A stretch of DNA of 64,000 nucleotides from Apostichopus japonicus (GCF_037975245.1 NC_092580.1:6732501-6796500); one strand, 5' to 3'; counted from the first letter of the stretch, positions 9,001 to 63,228 are shown. A program made the numbers and translations. Notes: generated from the sequence alone by a model not told the origin.

Positions 9001-12000
9001 GACCATTACACCTCATTGGCCATTACACCTCATCATACCCCATTGACCATTATACCTCACCATACCTCATTGGCCACCGTACCTCACCATACCTCATTGG
9101 CCGTTATACCTCACCATACCTCATTGACCATTATACCTCACCATACTTCATTGACCATTATACCTCACCATATCTCATTGACCATTATACCTCATCATAC
9201 CTCATTGACCATTATACCTCACCATCCCTCATTGCACCTCACCGAACAATATACCTCACCATACCTCACTGTACATTATACCTCATCATACCTTATGACC
9301 ATCACACCTCATCATACCTCATTGATCAATATCTGAACCATCTCCATCAGGGCATAATCCATACGCTTCCCAACCTCAAGTAAAGTATATTTGGGCTCTC
9401 AAGAAAGTAGCTCCAATGTTTAATATCAGATTGTCAACCTCCCAATTATTGTGTACCATTATGTCATCTTACAACCACATGGAGTAGAAAACATTTGAAC
9501 TTCTTAAACTTGTCAAAAGTGAGAGCCCAAGTGTGAAAGACATTACACATAAGCTAACTGAGTTTAAGCAGACCCAACTTACGAAAAGATAGACTTTTTA
9601 GGATCCACGTCAGAGACTTCCGGGTCAAGAATGTAAATAAATTCTGTACCATCGAGTGTTCTACTGCGATTGTCAAAACGCAACATAAGATTGTGGCTGC
9701 TGTTTACTGTAGAGTTCACATTAATGCATTTAATGTAATATTGTTGTATTCTGTAAAAGGAAAACATTAAAAATATTGACAAGCAAACCAGTGGAAGAAG
9801 TAGTAAGAATAAATAACTTAAACAAAGAATGATGGCTGCAAGCAGCATAGTGACCTAAATTGTGCATTGATGCAGGAGCTACAGTAAAAATCTGTGTTTG
9901 CAATATAACACACATACCTGCCATGTAAAGAGTTACATAGAGTAACAAATTGTAAGTTTGCCTGTGTTGGCATATGTTACATTGTTACGTTGTTGTCAAA
10001 TGGGATATATGTTACTTTATTTGAAAGATAAAACACAAAATGTCAATATTCTGCCGCAGAGTTCAGGACTTTCAAAGCCAAAGCAGTTGTGCCCAATCTG
10101 TCAATAACTACTAGTTGATTGTATTTCCCTGAGAGAACACATGACCAGTTCAAAATAGTGAACCACCAGTGTTTCCACTAAGCCGCTATGACGCGATTTT
10201 GACACAATGGCTTGCCGATTTGACGCACTGGCGTTCAGAGTAAGAGAGAAAAAAAAGAGGGTTTCACTTTCTCCTGAATTTTATACAGTGTGAATGAAAA
10301 CAAAACGTTTCACAAGGCATGGTGTTCAGAACTTAAACTTGAAGTGAAGAAAAATAGTATCAGAGAGTCACCCTTGTAATATCAGGTATCTGTGTAAATT
10401 AAATTGTGACATGCTTTTGCTTTAGCTAGGGTTTGCAGTAGCAGCGCGAATCGCGCAAACAGTTCTCACAATCCTGCATCAAATTTGAAGCAGTGTGGGA
10501 GGGTCGTGCACAATCACCGGATAAATTATGAGAATGTCATGGTCCTTTCATAAATTAAGAGTCTTTGTGGTTCAGAACCATAAAGACTCTTAATTTATGA
10601 AAGGACCATGACATTCTAATAATTTATCTTGCCATCCTATTTAACTACATTGAATGATATTACAGAATTATATTGAATGTAAAAAATAAATAATTACAAA
10701 AATGAATGGAAGAATTCAAATCATAGTAATCAATTATTTTTGTTTATTATATTAGAGATCTATGCAAAACATTGACATGTTCAGACTGTAACTCAGCAAG
10801 GATTTAATTACTCTTACGTTGTAATACTGCATGGCTCACTTCCAACAAAAGCTTCTATATCTCTACCGGTGTCTAGGTCTGTACCATTAATAGTTATCAA
10901 TGAACCTCCAGATGCTGGACCAATCTCAGGAAAATATGAGGTTAATTTTGGATCCTGCAAGAAAGATTCAATCAATGAGAAATGTTATTTATGAAAATAG
11001 ATGAGACAATCAAAAGGCTATACAAATAGAAACATTTGAAATCACACACAGCCTACCATCCACCTCTCACACTGATTCTTGAATACTATATATAAAATAA
11101 TGATATATGGAAAGAGTTTGAAAGGTTAAAGTAATATCAGAAAAAATCCTTAATTAACCATATGTCACAACTAAATGATTAACTTTGCATTCAACAAATG
11201 CCTGATTCAGTATGATAAAGTGGCATCTAAAGCAATGTAAAAAGAACTTACATAGTTAATTTCACTGTTAAGTACTACAGTAAATGATTCGTTTTACAGT
11301 TTTAAGTGAAAGGCACAGCCATAGGTACTAACTAGGGGTTAGGTATTAGGAGTTATAGGTACAGCCATAGGTACTAGTTAGGAGTGTTAGCTCAGTGGTA
11401 AATGCCGGTGCCTTCCAATCATAAGGTCCCCAGTTCGAGTCACTCCAAGCTTAATGTATGTCGTCCAGTTACATAGTTGTCGATAATTGACAATTCGTAA
11501 TAATGGACGTTAAATATGAACTTTGCTCAGCTTGTGGCTTTGCCAATGAGGCTTCTTTTTGAGTTCCTGCTTGCAGGAAGATCTAAAATACATACAATAA
11601 AATACAACTTAGGTTTACTAAACCATAGTGTTGTGTTTTTGATTTTATTCCTATTTATATTACTTTTTAGTATAGCGCCAACTTTTTCTTGTGGACGCTC
11701 AGAAATCGTTTTGTTTACAATTGTCACGTTTTAAGCCAGAAGCATTGCTTGTTTTAGATGCAATCATATAACCTTAATCTAAACTCATAGTTTCTATCGA
11801 TCCTTGGAGTGTGATAGTCTGTAAGTGTTTGTTGTATTTTTTACTGCTTATAGGATCACAAAATTGTACATCTAAGTTGTTATTGGCCAGTTTCTGCTGT
11901 GTTTTGTGAGGTGCCCTAATGTTTTCTATTCTCCATTATGTATTACCGTAGACCAATTCCGCTACGTTCCTGTTTTACATTGTTACTTACGGTTCATGAG

Positions 12001-15000
12001 ATTTGCATACTTGGGCTCACACGTTACCTGGTTGTTAGAGTTTTTTGTTGCAGTTATACTAGGTTGTTTATTTATAGTAATTTTTGGTATCTATTTTATT
12101 ATTGCGTGTACTTCACATCTATTCTTGAGTATTCTATTACCTCCACAACTCATTCAGTATGTTTCGTTACCCTTGGGCTTCTATTTACGTGTTATGTTAT
12201 CTTTGTTATTTGCATGGTGTGCGTACAGGGTACGTGTAGCTAAGATTTTGGTTGTATGGAGTTTCGGTTAGACCATTGTTTACTCATTGTTTACAGTTAC
12301 TTATTATGTGTTCCCTACGTTGTCATTGCAGTATATATAGTGTACAGTTTTCGGATAACCACAAGTCAGACATACAGTATTTGTTCACCTTGCCTATGTT
12401 AATTTCACTTTATCTTTAGTCAGGAATGTCACCTTCTTGTGGCATATGTTATCTAGCCTTGTTCATATAACATGTTCATTATTCTCACCTTGTTATTTAG
12501 ACATAGTTTTTTCCTTTGTTTCTTTCGGTTTTACCGTCTTCTCACTCATTCATCAACGTATAATCAAATTAAACTGTTGTCAAACGTCCATGATCTTGTC
12601 ACGGTTTATCTTTATTTTGGGGCTTGAGGGGAAATGGTTGTCTGGCTGTATAGCGCCCTCAGTTCCTTAGCGCGAGGACAGCACACATAGACTATTACCT
12701 ACTTCACTGGTACACACTGTAATAATGAAGACTCTACAGACCCTGTTAACTCTAATTTATGATTAATTTGACCCTTTTAGGGCAGGTTTTTACCAAAGTT
12801 AGGAAAGGACGTAAAAATGGTAATCTTTCAGTACATGCCTGTTTTTCATGTTTATTTATATGTATGACTATTAAGTATGATATCATTATTATATTCCCAT
12901 CAATGGAACAATCAATGAACATGCCTATGTATGCTTAACTTTACAAAGATTGGACCTTCCTATGTATGCTACACTGTACAAAGATTGGACCTGCCTATGT
13001 ATGCTACACTGTACAAAGATTGGACCTGCCTATGTATGCTACACTGTACAAAGATTGGACCTACCTATGTATGCAACACTGTACAAAGATTGGACCTGCC
13101 TATGTATGCTACACTGTACAAAGATTGGACCTACCTATGTATGCAACACTGTACAAAGATTGGACCTACCTATGTATGCTACACTGTACAAAGATTGGAC
13201 CTGCCTATGTATGTTAACTGTACAAACATTGGACCTACCTATGTATGCTACACTGTACAAAGATTGGACCTGCCTATGTATGCTACACTGTACAAAGATT
13301 GGACCTACCTATGTATGCAACACTGTACAAACATTGGACCTACCTATGTATGCTACACTGTACAAAGATTGGACCTGCCTATGTATGCAACACTGTACAA
13401 AGATTGGACCTTCCTATGAAGAATACACTGTGCAAAGATTGGACATGTCTATCTACCCTACACTGCACAAACATTGGACCTACCTATGTACCCTACACTG
13501 TACAAATTATTCCAATACATTATCTTTTACTTTCTTCCTTGTTTTACTCATGTAAAACCTATAAAGGCTAATCTCTGTACTTTGAAAAGTAGTGTTACTA
13601 ATGATGAATCGATTATGTCAAATCAGTATTTGAGAAACTAAACAAAAACATAAATCCGAACAAATTAGGAATCACTTTCAAAATGAAGGCTAGCTAGCAC
13701 GCTCAATATGGATGTAGGGAAAAACACTACCTACCAACACTATATTAAAGGATTATTTCTCACAGAATATACCTGCAAACAACCTGTTGATAAACATCAA
13801 ATGATCCCCATGAAGAATGTTACAATGTTTCATTGACTGAAACTTCTACTGAAAACCTGCATATTCTCAGCAAACCAAAACTCCTGAACTGATAAAAGGC
13901 AGACACTCCCTCACATAAGGTCTGGTATCTTAACACAAACAGAAAAATACTAATGGGAGTATATACAATGTACTCACATTGTAAGAGAACAGAACATCCC
14001 CCTGTGAAGTCCTGTCATCTGTTAATTCTACAGAGACCAGACCCATCTTCACCACTGATGATCCTGACAAACATGTCACACTGAAATATGGCAAAAAGAA
14101 AAGTATGGTATAAAGTACTGTATATTAAAAGGAAAAAGTAGTTAATTAAGAAATAAAGTTACACTTATCAATACTGAAGGCTTTACAGAGGATGATATCC
14201 TTATTATTGCTGGTTGCCAAAGTGATAATATATTATAAGTCACTGTCCTAAATGATACCATAAAGAAATCCTTTTGATGTCAACTAAAGACCAGTAACTT
14301 CTTAACTTGGAGAGTCCTACATGGGAGGCACTTGATCCCCCCTCCCTCTGCTTCTGTAGAAGATTTTACAGATGGTTTATATTTGTTGATATCACAGCTG
14401 AAAAGTGGAAAATTGCAAAAATGTACTTTAAACAATGACAGTGATAGCACCATTTTGCATCTAAGCTGGCATAAAATGCCATACATAGGAGAGGGGCATC
14501 TCTTCCCCTTAGACCCCTTCTCAGAATGGGCATCACCCTACATTATTACCCCACCCCAAATCAGTAACTCTGGAGACAGACATGATGTTATCACTGCATG
14601 TACCTACAAACAATTGCCCTATTACATGAACCATCTGCAATATACTGTTAAACACAATGAAATTAACTTTCTCACCTTTCCCCAACTATGTACTGATCTT
14701 CATAACGTCCATGATCACACGAAACCTCAGCTAGTTTGACTTCCTCAATATCTGAAAATCTCTGGCCCAGGTCAGTGCCGATAATTTGAACCATGGTCCC
14801 TCCTTCGATTGGACCACTAGTTGGTTCAATCTAGAAAATGTTGAGATGGAAATGTGTTAAAGTAAATTGAATAAAACCAACATGATGTGGTCACCCTGCC
14901 GACAAAGCTTTGTCTTCTGCCTCAACTATAAGGATTAGATAACTATCGAAACATGTCAAGATTCTCTACAGCCACAATCAGTATAAGGAAGGGAAAGATT

Positions 15001-24000: not shown

Positions 24001-27000
24001 GTTTTGGGCAATCTGCCATCAGACCAACATTTCCAAATTTGGTGTTCATTTCTCTTAATGGACAACATTTGTACTACTGTTACTCAATCACACACAACAA
24101 GAAATTATTCTTGATATCTTTTCTTTTAATTTTTGTTATTGTTGTCAATAAAATAAGAATTTTTCATTTTTTACTGCATAGCTTAATAGATTTATACGAC
24201 TACATAATGAGAAGGATTTCTGAGTGTAAATCATGTCCGAGAATCAATGGCGGCAATTTAAAACTGATATTTGGCAGGAAACTGAGTGGTTGAAATATGC
24301 AGGGCACCATACAATGTTTGATCTGTAATATTTATTCACTCAAACTTAAGTCAGGAATATTTTGTGTGTTGCAAGGAGATAGTCGTCATCCGTTACATAA
24401 ACTTCAGGGTGGCAAATATACACGTAGATATTGTTTGGAAATGAGTCGAGCACACAAACATTCCAAATTTCGACAAATGGAAGAGAGACACAGTGACTTC
24501 TACAGACAAATCTAGACCAGGTAACAAAAGGCAGAGTTACACATAAATACAAACTGTTTGTGACAATTTTGCTATCCATGGTGTATTGTTGGCTTGTTAC
24601 ATGGAAATAGTTGGAAGCTTGAATTGTAAAATGGAACACAGATCAGGATTTTGTGGAACTTGAACGAATAGGCTTTCATGTTCAATTTGGTCAGCTCGGA
24701 AATATCACAGATTGCCAGATCGCATTTGAAAAACCTTTTGGAAATCCCTACTCTGCCAAAAATAGTTGATATCTATTCCCGTTTCCAAGATATAACCCAT
24801 TAGTGATTTAGGGAACTTGTATTCATAATTCATTCTGACATTTTTTTGGCTCACAACACTGTATTTGACATAATAATGAGCTGTTGCTATAATACTCATT
24901 ATGAAGGGTAGCAAATATCATGTGGCTATGAGCGAGGTGCGTCGATGTGAGGCCTTCTTTAAACTTTATAGGTTTTGAAAGAGTTTGTAAAGAAGCTGCA
25001 TTACAGAGTATTTGAAGAACCACATCAGCAGCACTCACAACTTGTTTCTTGTTCTTCTTTTTTGCAAGTGGAGTTTTACCTTAAAAGAAATTGTAAAATG
25101 ACTTACCTTTCTCTCTGTTAGTACCATGATGCTTTCAGTATCATTACTGATCCAGGTATCACTAAGGACAGAGGAATGTAACTCCAGCTGTTCATATACA
25201 ACCCCTGACAATGCATTACCCACATCAAATCGAACCTGCAGAAGTGAAGTACTAAGTGATCAACCAAATAATAGAGTGACATACTGTAAACTGTAATGGT
25301 TATAAAGTACATACTAGTTACATACTTTCTATGTAGGTATTTGTATACTTATGAATGCTTTGTATATATTTTGTCTATTCAATATATATTCTTATTGTCT
25401 GTTTATGTACTTAAAATTAAGTAAAAACAAATTAAGTTAAAAAATCATCTGTATGAAGAATGTCATCAAGCCATCTCACCTTCAGTAAATGCCCTTCCTG
25501 AGAACGGATGAAAGCCACGTTCTGTGAAGCAGTCTGGACCATGGTCTTGGTAACCAGGATAGAGGTAAATGTTTCTCCTGAATGTTCAAAGACAACCTCT
25601 CCTGGGATAGGACCTAGGTGTGCATGTCTCTCAGGATATCTTGCTAATGAAGTGGTAGAACATGGTAGTATTGAACCTAATAGGTTACACTGAACTTCTC
25701 CTCCCTAGGAAAGAAGTTACATAACATCAGCTGAAACGACATATTGGATGTCACTACCTGCAGTTGATTCTATATTTGAAAGCAGTTGGGTTCTTTTCAG
25801 TGTTAATATGCTGGCTATCAGTCAAGTGTACTTGAACAGAGACAGCTGTTAGTTTTTTGTATTATGGCATAGCAGATACATTTTTGAGTCTTTAAAAAGA
25901 AATCTTTAAAAAAGTATGTAATGTCTAAGGTAATGATTAGAAGTATGCCATACGTTTGGCATTCCTTACTACCACGGCTCAAATTAACCGATGGCACAGA
26001 CTGCAAATTGCTGCTGGTGCCCCTACTGCTTACTGTACTGCCCTTCAAAATAATCTGTTACCAAAGGCAACAACTGCTATACCAAATCAGCTTGCCATGA
26101 GTGCCTGCTTTCATAATGATCTCAAGATTTAAATTCAATATATCAGGTTACCTAAATTATCTGAATCAAAGGCAAACAGCTGTTTAGCAACAGTGGGAAA
26201 CATAAATTTATCAAAAGATTTCTTGTGTTTCTGCAAAACAAGAAATTTGTTACATTTTAACATCATTGAACTAAAAACATTTTTGCCAGATCTTTGGTCA
26301 CTGTTATTGTTGTAACTTTAACTGCATGTATATAGGTTGCAAACATTTTTGTTTGTTTAATGCATCAATCATAATGGTAAGATAAATTTTGTCACATTAA
26401 AATGTTTGAAAACTGTCATAAACTGAATTTGATTGTAATGAATTTCTATAGTTATTGTATACATAATATTCAATGATGGCATACCTGGGAATGTTAGCAG
26501 TTTTCACAGTACTTTAACAAGATCATTTGGACAACAGTATGAATATCAATCTAGTATATTCTGGATAGACATTTTTGTTGTCTATTTGCCTGCTGTTGAG
26601 AACGTTTTTACGATTTCCATATCTTTTAAACATGTAAGTTTGGTATGAAAATTTACTGTAGTGTGTCTTGATGTCATATAAACAGTTGGTTCATACTGCT
26701 GGTTCATACCAGGCCTCCAAGTGTGTAAGGCCACCTCAAAATAAAATTGTCAGAAAAATGTTTTTCTTTAAAAAATATAGGTCATTCCTGCCCGGTAGAA
26801 GAACCCCCCATTAAAACACAAGTCTAGCTATGCACCTGCTCTTAAGCCCAGCCTGCTATGACACTGAAGTATATCAATGTAATGATCGGTTTTTATTGTT
26901 AATTATAGATCTTTTAAATCATGATACATTATCGCAATTAAACTACAGTTTGAAAAAGAAACTTAAAATCAGTTTCTTATTACTTCAATGTGCCCAAACA

Positions 27001-30000
27001 ATGGGTGTTAATCTCTCATTTTTTATATGTAGAATGTGTACAAGGAATTGTGAATAACTAACTGTGTATGATTGGTGCATAAGAAGGAATTTGACTCACT
27101 AGGACCTCATCTGACCTACATTGTAACAGCTTCACTGCCAAAATATAGTATATTACTATAATGACCACAATATAGTATATTACTATACTTTTCACAATAT
27201 AGTATACAACTATACTTACCACAATATAGTATAATACTATACTTACCATAATTAAGTATATTACTATACTTTCCATAATATTGTATATTACTATACAGGC
27301 GCGTAACCCGGGGGGCGCGAATTACTATCTAAGCGGAGCGCCACCATCGTTTGGCGCGCAGCGTACAAGAAAATTTCATAATGTTGCACAAAATTTCATC
27401 TGAGGACAGCCAATACAGAAAAACCTCCATGTTTATGAATGTTTGTCGGGGAAATTTCGAAAATTCAGACACAGTTAACATATTGGTGCAAGGGCGCAGA
27501 TCAGTCTTGGGTAATGGTGGGGACGCGTGTCTGTTCTCTGATACTATCTAAGCGGAGCGCGACCATGGGTTTGCCCATAGCGTACAAGAAATTTTTGGCA
27601 AATACTCCTCCCAGATCGCCGGAAACAACATTTCCCAGACCCAATGATGCTCCCATACCTCCTTAAGTTTTAGATCTCGTGGCTTAAAAATTAAGTTTGG
27701 GGAAATGCCTGGGCGTCTGCAGAAAAAAATCAGGGAAAATATAATCCAAGTAGACTTTTGTATACGATGGGTTTGGTTTTGTAACTCATTGGGAAGCGAT
27801 TAGAGGGGTGGGCGTAGGGTTGTGGGGCGCGCGTTTTCATGCAGATGGGAACAATCTCAAGAAGTGATGGGTGCGTTCGCCCCGCCCCCCCACCCCTCGC
27901 CGGCAATGATACGCCTTTGGATCCACTACATGATATTCACAGGGAATGTGCTCAATTCTCAAATCGCATGCGGAATTTATTTTTAGATTCATTGTATGAG
28001 TTACGGTACTAGGGGTGGGGTAAGAATTAGCATTCAGTTCGCGTTGTATAACATTTTAACTCTGCATGACAGTGTTGAATAGAAAGACATATGTCTAGTT
28101 CAGTTCGCATATAGATCCTGGGCTAATACCGAAGTCATGTTACCCGACGACTCGGTCGAGTTCAAGACCAGCCACCGTTGGTCACATCACAATTTTTACA
28201 ATTTGTTTAAGGCGTCCATACACACATGCGCCATGATATACTATATATAGTATATATATATATACATTAGTGAGATAGTTAAAATGGAAACGTCAAAAAT
28301 GGAGTTGTCGGTGTAAGGGGTAAGCTGAGCGCACGACCCCTCCGAAATCCTTGATCCGTCACTGGCTACCCTGTGTATATAATAGGGATCAGAGCTGTAA
28401 TTATGACTGTTCCTCTTTCTCTTCCCGGTGTCTAGGCGTTTTTCTTTCCCTCCTTTTCTCCTTTTCTCTCCTTCTTCTTTTCCTTTTTCCTTCTTTCCTC
28501 TCCTTCCTCCTCTTTTCCCCCTCTTTTTCTCTTTTTCTTCTCTCTTTTTTCTCTCCTCTTTTTCCTACCCGGGGGGCGCGTGCCCCCAACGCCCCCCCCT
28601 GGATACGCGCCTGCTATACTTACCACGATATAGTATATTATTGTACTTACCACAGAATAGTATATTACTATACTTACCACAAATAGTAAAATGCAAAGTA
28701 ATAAAGTAAAGCAAGTGTATCACAAAGAGGAAGCTGGAGTAACACTGTGTAGAAAGCTTCCCTTCATCAATTTATATTCTCCAGCAAACAAAGCTTAAGA
28801 CAAATCCCTGACCACACAAAACAGCCAACAAAAGAAGCACCAGTGGGAAAAAGCTACAGTAGTGATTTTTGCCAGATGAACCTGAACGCTACCCCAAGGA
28901 AGGAACTACCATATTGTATTGTTAGTTTATGTCAGCTTAATGAAGATGAACAGGAGAAACTAATAGAGTAATCTGAATCTATGTGATACTATACTTACCA
29001 GGATATACTATACTTTTCACAATAAAGTATGTTACTATACTTACCACAATACAGTATATTACTGTACTTCCCACAATAAAGTATATTACTATACTAACCA
29101 GGATAAAGTATATTACTATACTTACTACAATATAGTATATTACTATACTTTTGACAACATAGTATATTGTAACTTACACAATATAGTATTACTGTACTAA
29201 CCACAATATAGTATATTATTATACTTTCCACAATATAGTATATTACTATACTTACCACAATATAGTATATTACTATACTTACCACCAGTCTACATTGAGC
29301 AGTATTCAGGTAATTGCTGGGATTGTAAATTGATCCTCCATCTCGAACACAGGAACAGTCAATTGTTGCATCTTCAAACTTTTCAATCAAATTCTTCATC
29401 TCATATATACAGAGAGCAGACTGACTAGCTAGGTCAAAAGATTCATCTTCATTATTCTTGACAAATACAGCAAAGAGTTGACCATCCACTACCTGGGATG
29501 ATTGTACAATGCTATACAGAGTGTTATTAACCCCTCTGCATTCTAAAGTGATTTCAGTAAAACCATCCATTGTTGATGAACTGTCTGTTTGACACACACG
29601 GCTCAGTTTAGGGACAATGTAGTTTGGCTGGCTGTTACCTGTTGCATCCTGTAGCTGTGATGCAAAAAAGTAAGTGTAGTTATCATATGAAAATGAGGCA
29701 ACATATCTATTGTATATACATATATATTTTGTCTATTCAATATATATTCTTATTGTCTGTTTATGTACTTAAAATTAAGTAAAAACAAATTAAGTTAAAA
29801 AATCATCTGTATGAAGAATGTCATCAAGCCATCTCACCTTCAGTAAATGCCCTTCCTGAGAACGGATGAAAGCCACGTTCTGTGAAGCAGTCTGGACCAT
29901 GGTCTTGGTAACCAGGATAGAGGTAAATGTTTCTCCTGAATGTTCAAAGACAACCTCTCCTGGGATAGGACCTAGGTGTGCATGTCTCTCAGGATATCTT

Positions 30001-33000
30001 GCTAATGAAGTGGTAGAACATGGTAGTATTGAACCTAATAGGTTACACTGAACTTCTCCTCCCTAGGAAAGAAGTTACATAACATCAGCTGAAACGACAT
30101 ATTGGATGTCACTACCTGCAGTTGATTCTATATTTGAAAGCAGTTGGGTTCTTTTCAGTGTTAATATGCTGGCTATCAGTCAAGTGTACTTGAACAGAGA
30201 CAGCTGTTAGTTTTTTGTATTATGGCATAGCAGATACATTTTTGAGTCTTTAAAAAGAAATCTTTAAAAAAGTATGTAATGTCTAAGGTAATGATTAGAA
30301 GTATGCCATACGTTTGGCATTCCTTACTACCACGGCTCAAATTAACCGATGGCACAGACTGCAAATTGCTGCTGGTGCCCCTACTGCTTACTGTACTGCC
30401 CTTCAAAATAATCTGTTACCAAAGGCAACAACTGCTATACCAAATCAGCTTGCCATGAGTGCCTGCTTTCATAATGATCTCAAGATTTAAATTCAATATA
30501 TCAGGTTACCTAAATTATCTGAATCAAAGGCAAACAGCTGTTTAGCAACAGTGGGAAACATAAATTTATCAAAAGATTTCTTGTGTTTCTGCAAAACAAG
30601 AAATTTGTTACATTTTAACATCATTGAACTAAAAACATTTTTGCCAGATCTTTGGTCACTGTTATTGTTGTAACTTTAACTGCATGTATATAGGTTGCAA
30701 ACATTTTTGTTTGTTTAATGCATCAATCATAATGGTAAGATAAATTTTGTCACATTAAAATGTTTGAAAACTGTCATAAACTGAATTTGATTGTAATGAA
30801 TTTCTATAGTTATTGTATACATAATATTCAATGATGGCATACCTGGGAATGTTAGCAGTTTTCACAGTACTTTAACAAGATCATTTGGACAACAGTATGA
30901 ATATCAATCTAGTATATTCTGGATAGACATTTTTGTTGTCTATTTGCCTGCTGTTGAGAACGTTTTTACGATTTCCATATCTTTTAAACATGTAAGTTTG
31001 GTATGAAAATTTACTGTAGTGTGTCTTGATGTCATATAAACAGTTGGTTCATACTGCTGGTTCATACCAGGCCTCCAAGTGTGTAAGGCCACCTCAAAAT
31101 AAAATTGTCAGAAAAATGTTTTTCTTTAAAAAATATAGGTCATTCCTGCCCGGTAGAAGAACCCCCCATTAAAACACAAGTCTAGCTATGCACCTGCTCT
31201 TAAGCCCAGCCTGCTATGACACTGAAGTATATCAATGTAATGATCGGTTTTTATTGTTAATTATAGATCTTTTAAATCATGATACATTATCGCAATTAAA
31301 CTACAGTTTGAAAAAGAAACTTAAAATCAGTTTCTTATTACTTCAATGTGCCCAAACAATGGGTGTTAATCTCTCATTTTTTATATGTAGAATGTGTACA
31401 AGGAATTGTGAATAACTAACTGTGTATGATTGGTGCATAAGAAGGAATTTGACTCACTAGGACCTCATCTGACCTACATTGTAACAGCTTCACTGCCAAA
31501 ATATAGTATATTACTATAATGACCACAATATAGTATATTACTATACTTTTCACAATATAGTATACAACTATACTTACCACAATATAGTATAATACTATAC
31601 TTACCATAATTAAGTATATTACTATACTTTCCATAATATTGTATATTACTATACAGGCGCGTAACCCGGGGGGCGCGAATTACTATCTAAGCGGAGCGCC
31701 ACCATCGTTTGGCGCGCAGCGTACAAGAAAATTTCATAATGTTGCACAAAATTTCATCTGAGGACAGCCAATACAGAAAAACCTCCATGTTTATGAATGT
31801 TTGTCGGGGAAATTTCGAAAATTCAGACACAGTTAACATATTGGTGCAAGGGCGCAGATCAGTCTTGGGTAATGGTGGGGACGCGTGTCTGTTCTCTGAT
31901 ACTATCTAAGCGGAGCGCGACCATGGGTTTGCCCATAGCGTACAAGAAATTTTTGGCAAATACTCCTCCCAGATCGCCGGAAACAACATTTCCCAGACCC
32001 AATGATGCTCCCATACCTCCTTAAGTTTTAGATCTCGTGGCTTAAAAATTAAGTTTGGGGAAATGCCTGGGCGTCTGCAGAAAAAAATCAGGGAAAATAT
32101 AATCCAAGTAGACTTTTGTATACGATGGGTTTGGTTTTGTAACTCATTGGGAAGCGATTAGAGGGGTGGGCGTAGGGTTGTGGGGCGCGCGTTTTCATGC
32201 AGATGGGAACAATCTCAAGAAGTGATGGGTGCGTTCGCCCCGCCCCCCCACCCCTCGCCGGCAATGATACGCCTTTGGATCCACTACATGATATTCACAG
32301 GGAATGTGCTCAATTCTCAAATCGCATGCGGAATTTATTTTTAGATTCATTGTATGAGTTACGGTACTAGGGGTGGGGTAAGAATTAGCATTCAGTTCGC
32401 GTTGTATAACATTTTAACTCTGCATGACAGTGTTGAATAGAAAGACATATGTCTAGTTCAGTTCGCATATAGATCCTGGGCTAATACCGAAGTCATGTTA
32501 CCCGACGACTCGGTCGAGTTCAAGACCAGCCACCGTTGGTCACATCACAATTTTTACAATTTGTTTAAGGCGTCCATACACACATGCGCCATGATATACT
32601 ATATATAGTATATATATATATACATTAGTGAGATAGTTAAAATGGAAACGTCAAAAATGGAGTTGTCGGTGTAAGGGGTAAGCTGAGCGCACGACCCCTC
32701 CGAAATCCTTGATCCGTCACTGGCTACCCTGTGTATATAATAGGGATCAGAGCTGTAATTATGACTGTTCCTCTTTCTCTTCCCGGTGTCTAGGCGTTTT
32801 TCTTTCCCTCCTTTTCTCCTTTTCTCTCCTTCTTCTTTTCCTTTTTCCTTCTTTCCTCTCCTTCCTCCTCTTTTCCCCCTCTTTTTCTCTTTTTCTTCTC
32901 TCTTTTTTCTCTCCTCTTTTTCCTACCCGGGGGGCGCGTGCCCCCAACGCCCCCCCCTGGATACGCGCCTGCTATACTTACCACGATATAGTATATTATT

Positions 33001-34749
33001 GTACTTACCACAGAATAGTATATTACTATACTTACCACAAATAGTAAAATGCAAAGTAATAAAGTAAAGCAAGTGTATCACAAAGAGGAAGCTGGAGTAA
33101 CACTGTGTAGAAAGCTTCCCTTCATCAATTTATATTCTCCAGCAAACAAAGCTTAAGACAAATCCCTGACCACACAAAACAGCCAACAAAAGAAGCACCA
33201 GTGGGAAAAAGCTACAGTAGTGATTTTTGCCAGATGAACCTGAACGCTACCCCAAGGAAGGAACTACCATATTGTATTGTTAGTTTATGTCAGCTTAATG
33301 AAGATGAACAGGAGAAACTAATAGAGTAATCTGAATCTATGTGATACTATACTTACCAGGATATACTATACTTTTCACAATAAAGTATGTTACTATACTT
33401 ACCACAATACAGTATATTACTGTACTTCCCACAATAAAGTATATTACTATACTAACCAGGATAAAGTATATTACTATACTTACTACAATATAGTATATTA
33501 CTATACTTTTGACAACATAGTATATTGTAACTTACACAATATAGTATTACTGTACTAACCACAATATAGTATATTATTATACTTTCCACAATATAGTATA
33601 TTACTATACTTACCACAATATAGTATATTACTATACTTACCACCAGTCTACATTGAGCAGTATTCAGGTAATTGCTGGGATTGTAAATTGATCCTCCATC
33701 TCGAACACAGGAACAGTCAATTGTTGCATCTTCAAACTTTTCAATCAAATTCTTCATCTCATATATACAGAGAGCAGACTGACTAGCTAGGTCAAAAGAT
33801 TCATCTTCATTATTCTTGACAAATACAGCAAAGAGTTGACCATCCACTACCTGGGATGATTGTACAATGCTATACAGAGTGTTATTAACCCCTCTGCATT
33901 CTAAAGTGATTTCAGTAAAACCATCCATTGTTGATGAACTGTCTGTTTGACACACACGGCTCAGTTTAGGGACAATGTAGTTTGGCTGGCTGTTACCTGT
34001 TGCATCCTGTAGCTGTGATGCAAAAAAGTAAGTGTAGTTATCATATGAAAATGAGGCAACATATCTGATCAAAAAGTTGTCCAATACATTGCTTCCAATC
34101 TGATTTGTCCTCCTATTATCACCCATCTGGCACATTCTATCTGATCTTGACAAACAATTGGCAGATATTGGTGATGCTCCTCTGATATTCTGAGCAACAT
34201 AGAGGGCGAGGTTAACATCAACTCCAGCTGGATGAGTAACCACCAAACCGATTGCTGGATTCTGATCTTCAGTCACCTTGAGGAAAGATAGAGTTTCATC
34301 TTTTGTATATGTCAAGTCATCCAGATTCCGAAGCTGACATGTTCCATTCAGACCTGATCCACATGAAATTAATTTGTCCACTGGTTGAGGTACAATAGGT
34401 AAAATCTTGTTGGTATTATTTCCACTATTATCTTGAGTACTCACACTGGTCAGTTCACTGAAGTCTCTTGATAGGCAATACCGTCTCCCCACTCCTCCGA
34501 TATAAATGCTACTTCCATCCTCTGACACAGTGAAATGATTCAAACTGGAGTCAGAATTAACTGGAAAGGAATTTAAGTTGTAGGCATCCAATGACCCAAA
34601 ACAAAAATGTTTGGTTCCTTTGAAAAAGTATAAAATGTATAAAAAGATGAAGACAGTCCTGCACTTGAGTTCCATTTGGAAATATGATCTGGTACATTAG
34701 CTATGTAATCTCAAATGTCCACTAGTATGCAGAAAAGATTCATGTCTCA
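1..34749 (-). CDS. PLXN: Plexin (semaphorin receptor), minus-strand copy, 3' end outside window
   Basis: Single-pass receptor for semaphorins; the cytoplasmic GAP domain inactivates Rap/Ras-family GTPases in known plexins. Start codon at 34675; exon 1 begins at an acceptor at 34749, so the 5' UTR is spliced. I join 27 exons (33641-34749, 29838-30062, 25480-25704, then exons down to 1-55) with matching GT-AG sites and phases. Counting exon 2 once, approximate residues are: signal peptide 1-27, Sema to about 463, PSI1 464-540, Sema/IPT linker, PSI2 about 623-660, PSI3 about 760-818, IPT domains 819-1195, transmembrane helix about 1201-1225, coiled juxtamembrane part, divergent GAP domain 1230-1484 (incomplete). 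An RRKR site lies near residue 1060. Whether it is class A or B is not resolved. The tandem duplication in the Sema region makes the true mRNA uncertain. Confidence 0.93.
732..878 (-). CDS. Plexin exon 26: GAP-like domain, GPIDAVTG motif
   Basis: 49 codons, phase 0/0. Contains QQLYGAVKSTVELGPIDAVTG, then 'QFTINQQYLLDKQITFTEL', an unmistakable match to plexin '...AIKQQxEKGPIDAITGxARYSLxExxLxxxxIDYxxL'. Acceptor ATATAG, donor TTG|GTATGT. Confidence 0.92.
1662..1725 (-). CDS. Plexin exon 25: GAP-like domain
   Basis: 64 nt, 1 nt plus 21 codons: GNTCLEPLLSIWIAFSSYEYV, aligned to plexin 'TESVAEKMLTNWFxFLLYKFL'. It closes the phase gap between exons 24 and 26. Acceptor TTCACAG, donor TGTG|GTATGT. 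Confidence 0.82.
2413..2493 (-). CDS. Plexin exon 24: GAP-like domain
   Basis: 81 nt. Codes LLLTLIEKQIQGSKTDELN then PENIFR, corresponding to plexin 'KQLLxDLIDKNLESKNHPKLLLRR'. The second Arg of the plexin RR pair is replaced by Ser at the splice (AG|T). Acceptor TTTTGCAG, donor GAAG|GTAGTA. Confidence 0.86.
2589..2654 (-). CDS. Plexin exon 23: GAP-like domain
   Basis: 66 nt. Codes ANIVSHISLILMMDGKHALL, matching plexin '(DR)GNVASLIMTxLQGKLEYA'. The R of 'RxNVAS' is completed across the preceding splice. Acceptor TATTTCAG, donor CACA|GTAAGT. Confidence 0.86.
2818..2942 (-). CDS. Plexin exon 22: GAP-like domain
   Basis: 125 nt, phase 0 to 2. 'STFSDHLKKKEYLEVLFHAL' aligns with the helical plexin segment '...LFAQLLNNKxFLLTFIRTLE'. 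Acceptor TACACAG, donor AACG|GTAATC. Confidence 0.82.
3453..3598 (-). CDS. Plexin exon 21: start of cytoplasmic GAP-like domain
   Basis: 146 nt, phase 1 to 0, good acceptor (TTTCCTCAG) and donor (TAAG|GTAAAA). The residues around PICSPSKYIEVFIYDG sit where plexins have 'IPFLDYRTYAMRVLFP', but similarity is weak. Phase and splice signals are the main support. Confidence 0.72.
3599..5033 (-). other. Plexin intron 20, with TE scraps
   Basis: No exon seen. It holds a GC-rich 'GGGGGAGGGGGTGGCC...CCCCC' scrap near 3718-3760 and the 3' end of a SINE (4291-4380). Elsewhere it is AT-rich without recognisable structure. Confidence 0.6.
4291..4380 (+). mobile_element. SINE 3' fragment with (ACAT)n tail
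   Basis: The stretch from GTCAGCTTGCGGCTTTG through GAGTTCCTGCTTGCAGGA to the ATACATACAT tail matches the 3' body and tail of the full SINE at 11381-11604. It lacks the tRNA-like head: a 5'-truncated copy in an intron, opposite to the gene. Confidence 0.75.
5034..5259 (-). CDS. Plexin exon 20: transmembrane helix and juxtamembrane coil
   Basis: 226 nt, phase 0 to 1. After VQHANLNIGIGYLQYPG comes the only strongly hydrophobic internal segment of the protein, from IIYVVIPIAV to CILFIFGC, about 25 residues. A charged, coil-prone juxtamembrane stretch (KQKLEKDRIVTQLEMQIAQI) follows, as in other plexins. Acceptor TTCTAG, donor ACAT|GTACGT. Confidence 0.92.
6336..6512 (-). CDS. Plexin exon 19: membrane-proximal IPT domain
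   Basis: 59 codons, phase 0/0. Codes GRNLNEGSQEIDVKVYIG, ELCVNITL, and LVCTPPENSPP, matching the plexin 'GxNLN...VFIGxxxCxVxxLxxxxLxCxPPExQP' of the last IPT. Acceptor TTTACACAG, donor TATT|GTAAGT. Confidence 0.93.
7216..7470 (-). CDS. Plexin exon 18: IPT 3 end, RRKR site, IPT 4 start
   Basis: 85 codons, phase 0/0. Starts ICEIIDAGKMICPSPSLNF, then TQTRRKRADEAGG, then VGFIMDGV and 'FQYVQDPEYDQFEGGV', corresponding to plexin 'MxCxSPxL...GFxxDGV...FxYxPDPxFxxFxGGV'. The RRKR is a possible proprotein-convertase site. Acceptor AAAACAG, donor TTAAG|GTAATT. Confidence 0.92.
7869..7962 (-). CDS. Plexin exon 17: IPT domain 3
   Basis: 94 nt. Codes GGNTLTITGARLNIIMRPQI, matching the plexin 'SGGTxLTVxGxNLxxIxxPxI' motif of the third IPT. 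Acceptor ACCAATAG, donor TGAG|GTGAGC. Confidence 0.9.
8927..9330 (+). repeat. 27-bp minisatellite in plexin intron 16
   Basis: About 14 imperfect tandem copies of a 27-bp unit based on CCTCATTGACCATTATACC + TCACCATA. Because 27 is a multiple of three the array stays open in one frame (HHTSLTIIP repeats), giving a long spurious ORF from 8845. I see no coding evidence. Confidence 0.88.
9583..9750 (-). CDS. Plexin exon 16: IPT domain 2 end, IPT domain 3 start
   Basis: 168 nt, phase 2 to 2. Contains several N-glycosylation sequons (NST, NSS, NRS) and ends FIYILDPEVSDVDPKKSIFS, the next IPT start. Acceptor TTTTACAG, donor TTTTC|GTAAGT. Confidence 0.88.
10520..10628. repeat. 109-bp near-perfect palindrome in plexin intron 15
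   Basis: Two 54-nt arms (10520-10573 and 10575-10628) are reverse complements with two mismatches and a 1-nt centre (GGTTC-A-GAACC). No GC-rich element ends or clear target duplications are visible. It could be a hairpin element, an hpRNA locus or an assembly artefact. Confidence 0.9.
10818..10954 (-). CDS. Plexin exon 15: IPT domain 2, first part
   Basis: 137 nt, phase 0 to 2. Codes DPKLTSYFPEIGPASGGSLI and NGTDLDTG, a second IPT start, and FVGSEPC. Acceptor TTGCAG, donor CAAC|GTAAGA. Confidence 0.92.
11381..11604 (+). mobile_element. tRNA-derived SINE, full length
   Basis: The head (11381-11446) folds like a tRNA: 5' GGAGTG pairs with 3' CACTCC. The A box reads TTAGCTCAGTGGTA and the B box AGTTCGAGTC. 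A unique body follows, then a 3' part (CAGCTTGTGGCTTTG...GAGTTCCTGCTTGCAGGA) shared with 4291-4380, ending in an ATACATACAATAAAATA tail. It is inside a plexin intron, opposite in sense. I do not regard it as a functional tRNA gene because the central arm is not a convincing anticodon loop. Confidence 0.85.
11605..12920. other. T-rich intronic stretch, unidentified
   Basis: Plexin intron 14. The plus strand is T-rich, with open frames rich in F, L, V, I and C (for example 11906-12271) that look like composition effects. Two 'TATAGCGCC' words near 11673 and 12649 hint at transposon ends, but no repeat pair was confirmed. Confidence 0.4.
12921..13510 (+). repeat. 35-bp minisatellite in plexin intron 14
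   Basis: About 16 tandem copies of a 35-bp unit (core CTATGTATGCTACACTGTAC, then AAAGATTGGACC). Since 35 is not a multiple of three, the same peptide cycles through all frames and yields several overlapping open frames; none is taken as coding. Confidence 0.92.
13978..14080 (-). CDS. Plexin exon 14: IPT domain 1, second part
   Basis: 103 nt. Codes 'VTCLSGSSVVKMGLVSVEL' and ends DVLFSYN, the terminal IPT strand ('xFxYxxDP') which continues with DPKL of exon 15. Acceptor ATTTCAG, donor AAT|GTGAG. Confidence 0.9.
14676..14830 (-). CDS. Plexin exon 13: IPT/TIG domain 1, first part
   Basis: 155 nt, phase 0 to 2. Codes 'IEPTSGPIEGGTMVQIIGT' and DLGQRF, the classic IPT signature (P-x-S-G-P-x-x-G-G-T-x-V-x-I-x-G-x-N/D-L) as found after PSI3 in plexins. 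Acceptor TTTTCTAG, donor AAAG|GTGAG. Confidence 0.92.
15471..15646 (-). CDS. Plexin exon 12: PSI domain 3
   Basis: 176 nt, phase 1 to 0. Codes ILYKCSADRPDCSRCLSN, then MCIWCSSQSLC, CNQG and the exit VCTARPQITW, i.e. PSI3 followed by the 'PxI' entry to the first canonical IPT domain. A broken genomic copy of this exon lies at 42601-43510. Donor TGG|GTAGGC. Confidence 0.92.
16304..16394 (-). CDS. Plexin exon 11: strand leading to PSI3
   Basis: 91 nt, 30 codons plus 1 nt. Codes YTYTAEEQTVYASLNLRW then VREVYIDGTNN, matching the plexin strand '...ASLxLxW...' that runs into 'VxLYKC' of PSI3 across the splice. Confidence 0.87.
16908..17012 (-). CDS. Plexin exon 10
   Basis: 35 codons, phase 0/0, starting EYECVVGYEG and ending TVTCEETQ, corresponding to the 'YxCxVxxxG...VxC' strands of the plexin fold between PSI2 and PSI3. 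Acceptor AATGCAG, donor ACAG|GTAAAA. Confidence 0.87.
17645..17764 (-). CDS. Plexin exon 9: PSI2 end and start of next fold
   Basis: 40 codons, phase 0/0. Begins IESEHCPMLK, matching the plexin 'CP' that closes PSI2, followed by beta strands (REIIFIVQTP). Acceptor TGTACAG, donor CAAA|GTAAGT. Confidence 0.88.
18377..18470 (-). CDS. Plexin exon 8: PSI domain 2
   Basis: 94 nt. It codes CVDCSTNWDCNWCVDDFTC, a PSI core with the C-x2-C...C-x2-W-C spacing of plexin PSI2 ('CxxCxxxxxxCxWCxxxxxC'). Acceptor TACTTTAG, donor TTCATT|GTGAG. Confidence 0.9.
18471..20622 (-). other. Plexin intron 7, with local duplication
   Basis: No exon seen. Around 19289 and 19479 a segment beginning CATCAAACAAACTTA(C/T) and including CTGAACACCAGTAC is repeated with divergence at about 190-bp spacing, and a weaker relative may lie near 17940. 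The rest is AT-rich and unassigned. Confidence 0.45.
20623..20722 (-). CDS. Plexin exon 7: strand before PSI2
   Basis: 100 nt, phase 1 to 2. It codes EDAVEVELSLSSSEYNIKF then 'PYYYFDC', the plexin '...FxFYDC' motif that precedes PSI2. The acceptor is the first AG of CACCAGAG, chosen because it keeps frame with exon 6. Donor ACAGG|GTAAGT. Confidence 0.86.
21148..21199 (-). other. Candidate cryptic or poison exon in plexin intron 6
   Basis: A 52-nt stretch with a usable acceptor (TGTTTACAG) and donor (CTTCA|GTGAGT), open in the frame entering from exon 6 (VMEDSQRAEFTVNRVQL). It does not fit the phase of exon 7: inclusion would shift frame and soon meet a stop. Direct exon 6 to 7 joining reproduces the plexin consensus, so I leave it out of the main model. 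Confidence 0.3.
21309..21456 (-). CDS. Plexin exon 6: IPT-like segment after PSI1
   Basis: 148 nt, phase 0 to 1. The residues include 'NENYFCHFGN' and 'LLCQSPDVDTLPNIPVG', which match the plexin pattern '...YxCxFG...VxCxSP...LPxIPxG' between PSI1 and PSI2. Joined to exon 7 it gives IPVGEDAVEVEL, the expected plexin continuation. Confidence 0.88.
22230..22347 (-). CDS. Plexin exon 5: PSI domain 1, second half and linker
   Basis: 118 nt, 1 nt plus 39 codons. It begins CTRFNDC, completing PSI1 (RC-T of the previous exon), and leads into a linker ending LPVDVT. Acceptor GCTGTAG, donor CACC|GTAGAT, a weaker but acceptable donor. Confidence 0.83.
22649..22761 (-). CDS. Plexin exon 4: PSI domain 1, first half
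   Basis: 113 nt, phase 0 to 2. It codes the classic PSI start: C-S-Q-Y-Q-T-C-D-E-C followed by 'DPYCGWCTLEKRC', the canonical plexin/semaphorin/integrin cysteine pattern. Acceptor CTTTCAG, donor AGAG|GTAAG. Confidence 0.9.
22762..25106 (-). other. Plexin intron 3, nothing recognised
   Basis: A 2.3-kb AT-rich intron with a short (TA)n run at 22920-22935. Several short open frames occur on both strands, none with a domain, codon pattern or splice context I can support. Confidence 0.5.
25107..25235 (-). CDS. Plexin exon 3: end of Sema domain
   Basis: 129 nt, phase 0/0, acceptor TTCTGCAG and donor AAAG|GTAAG. The 43 residues begin VRFDVGNALSG and end in a strand (SIMVLTERK) resembling the last Sema blade strand of plexins ('YLLSEKQV'-like), directly ahead of PSI1. 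Confidence 0.87.
25480..25704 (-). CDS. Plexin exon 2, copy A (Sema domain)
   Basis: Phase 0/0 exon of 75 codons, acceptor TTTCCTAG at 25705-25706 and donor CTGAAG|GTGAG at 25479. It codes the middle to late Sema blades; the plus-strand exon 62...63229 is its paralogue. It joins in frame to exon 3. This copy lies in the first (left) unit of the tandem duplication. Confidence 0.88.
27139..27295. repeat. Donor-like 27-bp minisatellite block in plexin intron 1
   Basis: Degenerate tandem copies of the unit that, read on the gene strand, is GTAAGTATAGTAATATAC followed by TATATTGTG. It abuts the 1.3-kb transposon. Further blocks are at 28614-28697 and 28982-29282, and all recur 4,358 bp to the right. 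Confidence 0.85.
27296..28613. mobile_element. 1.3-kb transposon with CAGGCGCGTA ends, copy 1
   Basis: The ends are inverted: 5' CAGGCGCGTAACCCGGGGGG and 3' ...CCCCCCCTGGATACGCGCCTG. It is flanked by CTATA on both sides (27291-27295 and 28614-28618). Inside are two copies of the GCGGAGCGCCACCAT-type motif and a strong polypyrimidine tract. No transposase frame seen, so it is non-autonomous. It sits in the intron 1 minisatellite. Confidence 0.85.
28438..28566 (+). repeat. Polypyrimidine tract
   Basis: About 130 bp almost purely C and T on the plus strand, inside the 1.3-kb transposon; duplicated at 32796-32924. Open frames across it are low-complexity artefacts (S/F/L- or K/R/E-rich). Confidence 0.9.
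29283..29708 (-). pseudogene. 5'-truncated duplicate of plexin exon 1
   Basis: This copies 33641-34066 (3' part of exon 1) at a spacing of 4,358 bp, with its donor and following minisatellite. The duplication breakpoint at 29708 removes the start codon, signal peptide and first blades, and nothing like an acceptor was carried with it. The translation matches the intact copy from just after the 'NFLIRY' region to CRLV. It should be skipped in splicing, so I class it as a non-functional exon fragment. Confidence 0.85.
29838..30062 (-). CDS. Plexin exon 2, duplicate copy B (Sema domain)
   Basis: This 225-nt, phase 0/0 exon looks identical to 25480-25704 and lies in the second unit of the 4.36-kb tandem duplication. 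The acceptor is at 30063-30064 and the donor reads CTGAAG|GTGAG. It codes 75 Sema residues including 'TSILVTKTMVQTASQNVAFI'. If the assembly is right, exon 1 would splice here first and then to copy A, because the truncated exon 1 in between has no acceptor of its own. Confidence 0.7.
31654..32971. mobile_element. 1.3-kb transposon with CAGGCGCGTA ends, copy 2
   Basis: Same element as 27296-28613, present here only because the host segment was duplicated in tandem: flanks and target duplication are identical. Confidence 0.85.
33340..33640. repeat. Donor-like 27-bp minisatellite directly after plexin exon 1
   Basis: About eleven imperfect units begin exactly at the exon 1 donor; on the gene strand at least six contain the hexamer GTAAGT. 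The frame stays open into the array (VSIVIYYIV repeats). Homologous to the array after exon 1 of the plus-strand paralogue (60166-60293). Confidence 0.9.
33641..34749 (-). CDS. Plexin exon 1: signal peptide and first part of Sema domain
   Basis: The exon starts at an acceptor (AG at 34750-34751) with 74 nt of 5' UTR, then ATG at 34675 (-3 is A). It codes about 345 residues: a hydrophobic N-terminus (signal peptide), then the Sema blades with the plexin-like run 'LNHFTVSEDGSSIYIGGVG' and paired cysteines. It ends after CRL at either CTG|GTGGTA (33644) or CTGGTG|GTAAGT (33641). The second fits the donor consensus better; the first matches the plus-strand paralogue. The open frame runs on past the donor into the intronic minisatellite to 33452 and should not be read as coding there. 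It is the only full exon 1 of this gene. Confidence 0.9.
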
Positions 34750-59059: not shown

Positions 59060-60165
59060 TGAGTCACCAATCTTTTGATCGATTCTGGTTACAAGTGGAC
59101 ATTTGAGATTTCCTACTGTTCAGATCACCTTTGAAAATGGAATTTAAGTGCAGGAGGGTGGCTATCATGATATACATTTTATGTTTTATCCAAGAAAACA
59201 GTTTATCTTTTGCTTCCTTGGATGCATACAACTTAAATTCCTTTATGGTTAAGTCAGACACAAGTTTGAATCATTTCACTGTGTCAGAGGATGGAAGTAG
59301 CATTTATATCGGAGGAGTGGGGAGACTGTATCGCTTATCAAGAGACTTCAGTGAACTGACCAGTGTGAGTACTCAAGATAATAGTGGAAATAATACAAAC
59401 AAGATTTTATCTATTGTACCTCAGCCAGTGGACAAATTAATTTCATGTGGATCAGGTCTGAATGGAACATGTCAGCTTTGGAATCTGACAGACTTGAGGG
59501 ATACAAAAGATGAAACTCTATCTTCCCTCAAGGTGACTGAAGATCAGAATCCAGCAATCAGTTTAGTGGTTACTCATCCAGCTGGAGTTGATGTTAACCT
59601 CGCCCTCTATGTTGCTCAGAATATCAGAGGAGCATCACCAATATCTGCCAATTGTTTGTCAAGATCAGATAGAATGTGCCAGATGGGTGATAATAGGAGG
59701 ACAAGTCAGTTTGCCATCCCTGTATTGGAGAACTTTTTGATCAGATATGTTGCCTCATTTTCATATAATGACTACACTTATTTTATTGCATCACAGCTAC
59801 AGGATGCAACAGGTAACAGACAGCCAAACTACATTGTCCCTAAATTGAGCCGTGTTTGTCAAACAGACAGTTCATCAGCAATGGATGGTTTTACTGAAAT
59901 CACTTTAGAATGCAGAGGGGTTAATGACACTCTGTATAGCATTGTACAATCATCCCAGGTAGTGGATGGTCAACTCTTTGCTGTATTTGTCAAGAATAAT
60001 GAAGATGAATATTTCGACCTAGCTAGTCAGTCTGCTGTCTGTATATATGAGATGAAGAATTTGATTGAAAAGTTTGAAGAAGCAACAATTGACTGTTCCT
60101 GTGAACCAGAGGGAGTATCAATTTACAGTAGCAACAACTATCTGAATGATGCTAAATGTAGACTG
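59060..60165 (+). CDS. PLXN: Plexin paralogue exon 1: signal peptide and first part of Sema domain
   Basis: Acceptor TCTTTGCAG at 59051-59059; 5' UTR 59060-59136; start ATG at 59137 (an upstream TTG-AAA is not used), giving MEFKCRRVAIMIYILCFIQ as signal peptide. Exon 1 then codes Sema blades closely matching the minus-strand copy, with canonical GGVGRLYRLS where the other has GGVGRRYCLS. It ends KCRL at CTG|GTAAGT (60165). Most differences lie in the signal peptide and in scattered surface-type changes, some altering N-glycosylation sequons. The gene continues to the right of the window; same receptor role as the minus copy. Confidence 0.92.
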
Positions 60166-60293
60166 GTAAGTAAAGTAATATATATACTATATTGTGGTAA
60201 GTATAGTAATATACTATATTGTGGTAAGTATAGTAATATACTATATTGTGGTAAGTATAGTAATATATTATATTGTGGTAAATTAGTAACATG
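60166..60293 (+). repeat. Donor-like minisatellite after plexin paralogue exon 1
   Basis: One 31-bp unit and then three 27-bp units of GTAAGTATAGTAATATAC + TATATTGTG, starting at the exon 1 donor itself; four GTAAGT donors in tandem and a fifth weaker GTAAAT. Shared with the minus copy, so it predates the gene duplication or was homogenised. Confidence 0.92.
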
Positions 60294-63000: not shown

Positions 63001-63228
63001 GACTGAAGAAGATATTCCATGTAGCACAGAACTACCACTACCATGTATCACCACTCAATTAGCAAGATATCCTGAGAGACATCCAGGCCTAGGGCCTATC
63101 CGAGGAGATGTTGTCTTTGAACATTCAGGAGAAACATTTACCTCTATCCTGGTTACCAAGACCATGGTCCAGACTGCTTCACAGAACGTGGCTTTCATCG
63201 GTTCTCAGGAAGGGCATTTACTGAAGGT
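63001..63228 (+). CDS. Plexin paralogue exon 2 (Sema domain)
   Basis: Acceptor TTTTCACAG, donor CTGAAG|GTGAGATG, phase 0/0. Begins TEEDIPCSTELPLPCITTQL and continues ARYPERHPGLGPIRGDVVFE. The second half matches the minus copy almost base for base, including the first part of the following intron, while the first third is strongly diverged. Confidence 0.88.

Follow-up and report, generated by a model that had tools for sequence, protein, structure and literature searches.

A 27-bp intronic minisatellite that starts at the exon 1 splice donor of clustered plexin genes in Apostichopus japonicus

We analysed a stretch of 64,000 nucleotides of Apostichopus japonicus (GCF_037975245.1 NC_092580.1:6732501-6796500, hereafter the window; C20:6732501-6796500 in an assembly of 671.6 Mb and 35 contigs). 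It contains two plexin genes, one on each strand (the minus gene and the plus gene), and in both a minisatellite of tandem splice donors starts where exon 1 ends. The probable explanation is that the native 5' splice site of exon 1 gave rise to this intronic array and is still part of it, that the donor next to the exon is most likely the one normally used, and that those behind it are for the most part neutral decoys that change quickly.

The array at the exon 1 donor of five plexin paralogues

The tandem unit is 27 bp long (GTAAGTATAGTAATATACTATATTGTG), and the array starts at the plexin exon 1 donor on both strands of the window. Tandem Repeats Finder (TRF) called the array at 33364-33643 (10.6 copies) and at 60182-60289 (4 copies), and unit alignment extended the minus array from the exon edge to 33341. 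Exact copies of GTAAGTATAGTAATATACTATATTGTG are present in two minus-strand units adjoining exon 1 (and in their exact duplicates) and in two units on the plus strand (60197-60250). According to both methods the units, which lie in the 10-100 bp range, are arranged head to tail, as in a variable number tandem repeat (VNTR) of the CBS type. An initial annotation of the window had described a 27-bp array at plexin exon 1, with a unit beginning GTAAGTATAG, as a series of near-ideal donors that sets in right at the exon boundary. TRF and unit alignment confirmed the array, the unit begins as described, and the plexin assignment is supported by a plexin-type Sema domain: the best PDB match of the plus copy is Plexin A (E 3.1e-20), with a weak Pfam Sema match (19.3 bits, under the cut-off of 23.7). 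The same annotation had counted at least six following GTAAGT copies in the minus gene and four in its paralogue. The block next to exon 1 of the minus gene has six including the first donor, leaving five after it, and the three blocks in its intron 1 have 11 in total; the four in the plus array are present, the first donor being one of them. The exon edge of the minus gene is offset (CTG/GTGGTAAGT, where the slash marks the boundary), so that its strong donor lies at +3 relative to the paralogues. TRF placed two further repeats of the minus gene at 32972-33046 and 31496-31654. We read the three minus-gene blocks, all in intron 1, as a single array split by insertions.

A genome-wide search with the unit (up to 3 mismatches) gave 50 matches, some of them stemming from an exact 4346-bp duplicate in the window, and all within 247 kb (C20:6,644,231-6,890,735); the reversed control gave none, which puts the array far above chance. 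All unit matches listed fall between exon 1 and exon 2 of five plexin paralogues, in each of which exon 2 was located. The five genes form a cluster at C20:6.597-6.938 Mb, three on the minus and two on the plus strand. Used as a protein query, exon 1 of the plus copy picked up, besides itself, four close paralogues within the cluster (81-87% protein identity), namely the minus gene and three genes referred to here as L001, L002 and L003, as well as one exact partial duplicate in the window, two paralogues on C16 and more distant ones. In all five paralogues the unit begins at the exon 1 donor, after ..TGTAGACTG, and the array contains or borders on a genuine exon donor, as judged by comparison of the genes. 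The array of L003 is split as well: one block adjoins the exon, and the other (L004) lies 12.5 kb further off, also within the 21-kb intron 1. Past the array, the introns of the paralogues share sequence (..CAATGTAGGTCAG.. with small changes), which indicates that the introns are homologous and that the array expanded locally within them.

These data bear on the possibility that a dispersed repeat or mobile family brought the unit into plexin introns. Such an origin would fit the abundance of minisatellites in the genome, but none of the listed matches with up to 3 mismatches lies outside the 247-kb cluster (gap sequence not covered), and in all five genes the array is embedded in otherwise homologous intron sequence. 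We therefore regard this origin as very improbable, and a dispersed repeat family was ruled out at the search depth used (0 of 50 matches outside the cluster). Intron gain of the introner type was also rejected, since a single intron position is concerned and this position is also found in the two C16 paralogues, which have no array.

Plexin cytoplasmic exons were detected at three places of the cluster, C20:6596984(-), 6841457-6846293(+) and 6923811-6938015(+), and their positions and strands would assign them to L001, the plus gene and L003, respectively. The cluster search found none for L002 and the minus gene, so these two genes may be truncated or diverged.

By wrap-around alignment the minus gene has about 20 units (three blocks) and the plus gene 4, followed by a partial one, while L001 has 3, L002 has 1, and L003 and L004 together have about 20. 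In this respect the initial annotation is supported, as array length varies strongly between the paralogues of this one assembly. The two C16 paralogues (L005 and L006; 42% protein identity, 44% in the exon 1 protein search) have no array, but their donor (..CHA/GTAAGTGTAATTAC) occupies the same position, indicating that the donor came first and that the array grew from an existing 5' splice site. Exon 1 of L002 is 95.5% identical at the DNA level to that of the minus gene, its closest relative, and yet the two genes have one and about 20 units. In the exon 1 tree L002 groups with the minus gene and L003 (support 82/96), and because these carry the two longest arrays, it is easier to see a contraction in the single unit of L002 than an ancestral condition. 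The array is probably older than the divergence of the five paralogues, with spread by gene conversion as the alternative, and would then have expanded or contracted to between 1 and about 20 units per gene.

Table 1. Plexin exons, array blocks and the large duplication in the window
Feature	Position	Strand	Details
Plexin exon 1 of minus gene, coding part from first Met	33645..34675	-	Sema domain start; ends ..QCRL before donor region; open frame; 84.5% identical to plus copy
Array block 1, about 11 units of 27 bp from exon 1 edge	33341..33644	-	first bases GTG/GTAAGT; TRF and unit alignment
Array block 2, two full units and a partial one, interrupted by GC-rich insert	32964..33037	-	TRF and unit alignment
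Array block 3, about six units	31490..31659	-	runs out into intron sequence common to paralogues; TRF and unit alignment
Exon 2 of minus gene	29838..30062	-	phase 0; intron 1 about 3.6 kb
Exact copy of 29721-34066, 4346 bp	25363..29708		12 bp between copies, period 4358
Plexin exon 1 of divergent plus-strand paralogue, from first Met	59137..60165	+	ends ..KCRL/
Array of plus paralogue, 4 units and a partial one	60166..60293	+	donors at 0, +31, +58, +85
Exon 2 of plus gene	63002..63226	+	acceptor TTTTCACAG/ACTGAA; phase 0

The sequence between blocks 2 and 3 (31660-32963) has GC-rich ends (..GCGCCCCCCGGGT..), and a mobile element has perhaps landed inside the minus-gene array there. The duplicate at 25363-29708 contains the 3' part of exon 1, three array blocks (27138-29285) and a second exon 2 (25480-25704); as an exact copy of 29721-34066 it makes the array blocks appear twice in the window. 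This tandem duplication is either very recent or an artefact of the assembly. An artefact, in which case the minus gene has one array and not two, is a serious possibility that we rate slightly below even: the two copies are identical letter for letter, even in the fast-changing arrays, while the 12-bp filler at their junction fits a real recent duplication. The conclusion on the array is independent of whether the duplication is real. Two further minisatellites in the window have open frames running through them, at 12924-13506 (35-bp unit, 16.7 copies) and at 8929-9332 (27-bp unit).

Donor choice and its possible effect on the protein

The reading frames limit what use of a later donor could do to the receptor. 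Exon 2 starts in phase 0 (..CRL/TEED or /GGAVQC). Counted from the paralogous exon end, the later donors of the plus gene (Table 1) are all in frame +1; L001 has donors at 0 (weak, GTAACG), +6 and +62, the later strong one at +62 being in frame +2; L002 has a donor at 0 only; and L003 has donors at 0, +27 (weak, in frame) and then from +55 to +367, all in frame +1, which includes every later donor scoring above 8. The minus gene has in-frame donors at +3, +30 and +84 (weak), followed by ones that are out of frame. With exon 2 in phase 0, strong later donors would thus break the frame in all but one of the four multi-unit paralogues, and a nine-codon insertion from a strong donor is possible only in the minus gene (+30). 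The only change at the protein level that the sequences suggest is the shift of the exon end between paralogues by 0, +3 (minus gene) or +6 bases (L001), corresponding to zero, one or two codons, all in frame.

The initial annotation had proposed that use of later donors adds multiples of nine hydrophobic residues, or a hydrophobic tail, and thereby generates length variation in the Sema domain. In its favour, the donors at +3, +30 and, weakly, +84 of the minus gene are in frame and the frame there stays open to +189, so that the nine-codon, in-frame unit it relied on does hold for the first units of the minus copy. Judged by the donor offsets it fails everywhere else, as the strong later donors of the plus gene, L001 and L003 are out of frame. 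Also in its favour, the exon 1 frame of L003 stays open for 450 bases through the first array block (L003 4152-4600), where a retained intron would give the protein a long tail. Against it, the Sema domain folds compactly, and inserts of this kind would hardly be tolerated without harm. Moreover, the GTAAGT hexamer, of which 34 are left across the array stretches of the minus gene, the plus gene and L001-L004, is not conserved above the remainder of the unit: over 49 units, changes per position amount to 4.0 in GTAAGT and 3.95 in the other 21 positions (24 changes in six positions vs 83 changes). There is thus no sign that later donors are kept, and selection keeping them was not seen. Nine-residue insertions as a general mechanism are not upheld by these data, and we consider productive use of the later donors unlikely.

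It may also be asked whether the array as a whole serves as a landing strip for the U1 small nuclear ribonucleoprotein (U1 snRNP), either securing the splicing of exon 1 or shielding intron 1 from premature cleavage and polyadenylation, a protection of introns by U1 that is known as telescripting. U1 recognizes a donor by base pairing, and G/GTAAGTAT is a long U1 match. Most of the intact GTAAGT copies extend to GTAAGTAT (9/11 in the minus blocks, 3/4 in the plus gene, 2/2 in L001, 1/1 in L002, 9/9 in L003 and 7/7 in L004), and in L003, which has about 20 units, intron 1 is 21 kb long. On the other hand, the minus gene has a similar number of units with an intron of 3.6 kb, and L002 has one unit with an intron of 4.2 kb. 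As the hexamer is not preferentially conserved, which also speaks against a U1 function, we regard this role as improbable, even more so than use of the later donors in the protein.

RNA hairpins that hide the later donors were considered and rejected as an explanation for first-donor choice. The unit contains a 7-bp inverted repeat (TATAGTA/TACTATA, the slash here separating the two arms), and in predicted RNA pairing the first donor is the most open one in L003 only (0.66).

Several observations weigh against the explanation we prefer, in which the array grew from the native donor and the first donor is used. Choice of the first donor is itself inferred. The scores of intact later donors differ from that of the first by no more than about one bit (9.7 vs 9.7-10.7, in a scoring matrix in which only differences are meaningful). 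Of the four multi-unit genes, three have a second GTAAGT that is predicted to be more open than the first donor (first vs second: 0.22 vs 0.67 in the minus gene, 0.50 vs 0.56 in the plus gene and 0.43 vs 0.62 in L001). With respect to history, the single unit of L002 may be a contraction and not an original state, and shared descent brings the five paralogues close to being one event instead of five.

Donor-spanning minisatellites elsewhere in the genome

Two patterns of a triple donor motif pointed to many other arrays, and from the matches listed a sample of 19 was taken (13 distinct arrays from one pattern and 6 further ones from the other); 18 could be judged, as the stretch obtained for L026 was without its array. 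Ten peptides were scanned with Pfam and four with PDB, the other loci having only short open frames up to the donor. Six of the 19 arrays begin at the 3' end of a homology-supported exon, with a unit that holds the exon tail and the donor. By homology these exons match a TIL domain (L009; Pfam 1e-9), ceramide glucosyltransferase (L010; PDB 1e-17), serine palmitoyltransferase 1 (L011; PDB 1e-5; 38-bp unit, 47 copies), a protein tyrosine phosphatase (L012; Pfam 2e-10), F-box/WD 1A or 11 (L021; beta-TrCP-like; PDB 4e-13) and an ENTPD4-like protein (L022; PDB 2e-19). In L012 the array called by TRF starts 16 bases past the first donor, and the later units repeat the exon end CATTGTAG. The domain match of L009 stops 11 residues before the donor. 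In the other five the protein match reaches the first donor or ends at most one residue from it, which means that the usual protein needs the first donor, even with another 2 to 39 good donors behind it in the stretch examined. One more locus (L013) is exon-like and gave no protein match.

For comparison, 30 arrays were selected by unrelated motifs from the matches listed (8 + 8 + 14 for three motifs), after 13 simple-repeat arrays of the ATGG type had been set aside for the first of these; selected long open frames were scanned (16 peptides with Pfam, two with PDB), so that misses are possible. One of the 30 spans a donor, that of a P-loop ATPase exon (L037). Three others lie near splice sites: a 39-bp minisatellite whose consensus is without donor motifs (L031, about 1346-1653) starts 6 bases into the intron after a PDZ exon with Multiple PDZ domain protein as best PDB match, in L043 about 50 bases separate a likely donor from the start of the array (weak separase-family match, E 0.014), and in L046 the array stops about 120 bases short of a likely acceptor (weak RPE65-family match, E 0.0026). 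The triple donor motif gave 213 matches vs 34 for the reversed control in one pattern and 249 vs 398 in the other, where the control motif sits largely in ATGG-type repeats and a few long arrays; unrelated motifs gave 569 vs 280 and 59 vs 237. Matches overlap within arrays, and these counts are not counts of arrays. Neither the motif counts against reversed controls nor the 30 unrelated-motif arrays show an enrichment of donor motifs in minisatellites, and one donor-spanning array with three near splice sites among 30 is too few for such a claim. On the strength of the homology matches, the donor-spanning kind of array is not unique to the plexins in this genome. Among the papers listed in searches on repeats and splice sites and on donor choice, none showed a description of a multi-gene class of donor-spanning minisatellites.

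It is tempting, though doubtful, to go further and suppose that 5' splice sites are recurrent birthplaces of minisatellites here, with dozens of genes carrying 5 to 47 near-identical donors of which the first is reliably chosen, and with the plexin cluster as the longest-lived example, followed through gene duplication. If true, the genome would be a natural experiment on the choice of one donor among many equals, a choice between neighbouring sites which has been studied mostly in engineered transcripts. Paralogues with the same exon end and 1, 3, 4 or about 20 near-identical donors, in and out of frame, form a natural test of splice-site choice, in which the one-unit paralogue L002 is a built-in control; seven other loci carry comparable stacks at homology-supported exons.

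Comparison with known systems

These seven loci (L009, L010, L011, L012, L021, L022 and L037) resemble the plexin genes in having tandem donor-containing units (28-47 bp) after a homology-supported exon. They differ in that the unit includes about 4-33 bases of exon tail, that each array was seen at one locus only among those examined, and that there are up to 47 copies. Tandem alternative 5' splice sites a few bases apart are a known kind of arrangement, and CTG/GTGGTAAGT in the minus gene and CTG/GTAACGGTAAGT in L001 likewise put the donor 3 or 6 bases downstream. Unlike in that arrangement, the neighbouring plexin donors are the edge of a minisatellite.

The VNTR of human CBS sits at the boundary of exon 13 and intron 13, and alternative splicing was reportedly described for it by Lievers in 2001. 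Its 31-bp repeat, present in 16-21 copies, has been named c.1444_1467+7(16_21) (PMC2630376), and from this name the repeat crosses the exon end. Going by the name, the unit consists of 24 exon and 7 intron bases and is a human polymorphism, whereas the plexin unit is intronic, common to five paralogues and known from one assembly only. As far as this source describes it, the CBS repeat is the closest known case: as in the plexin array, it spans the 5' splice site and a run of donors follows the exon. In another CBS duplication, mentioned in the introduction of the same source, one of two neighbouring splice sites is strongly preferred (PMC2630376).

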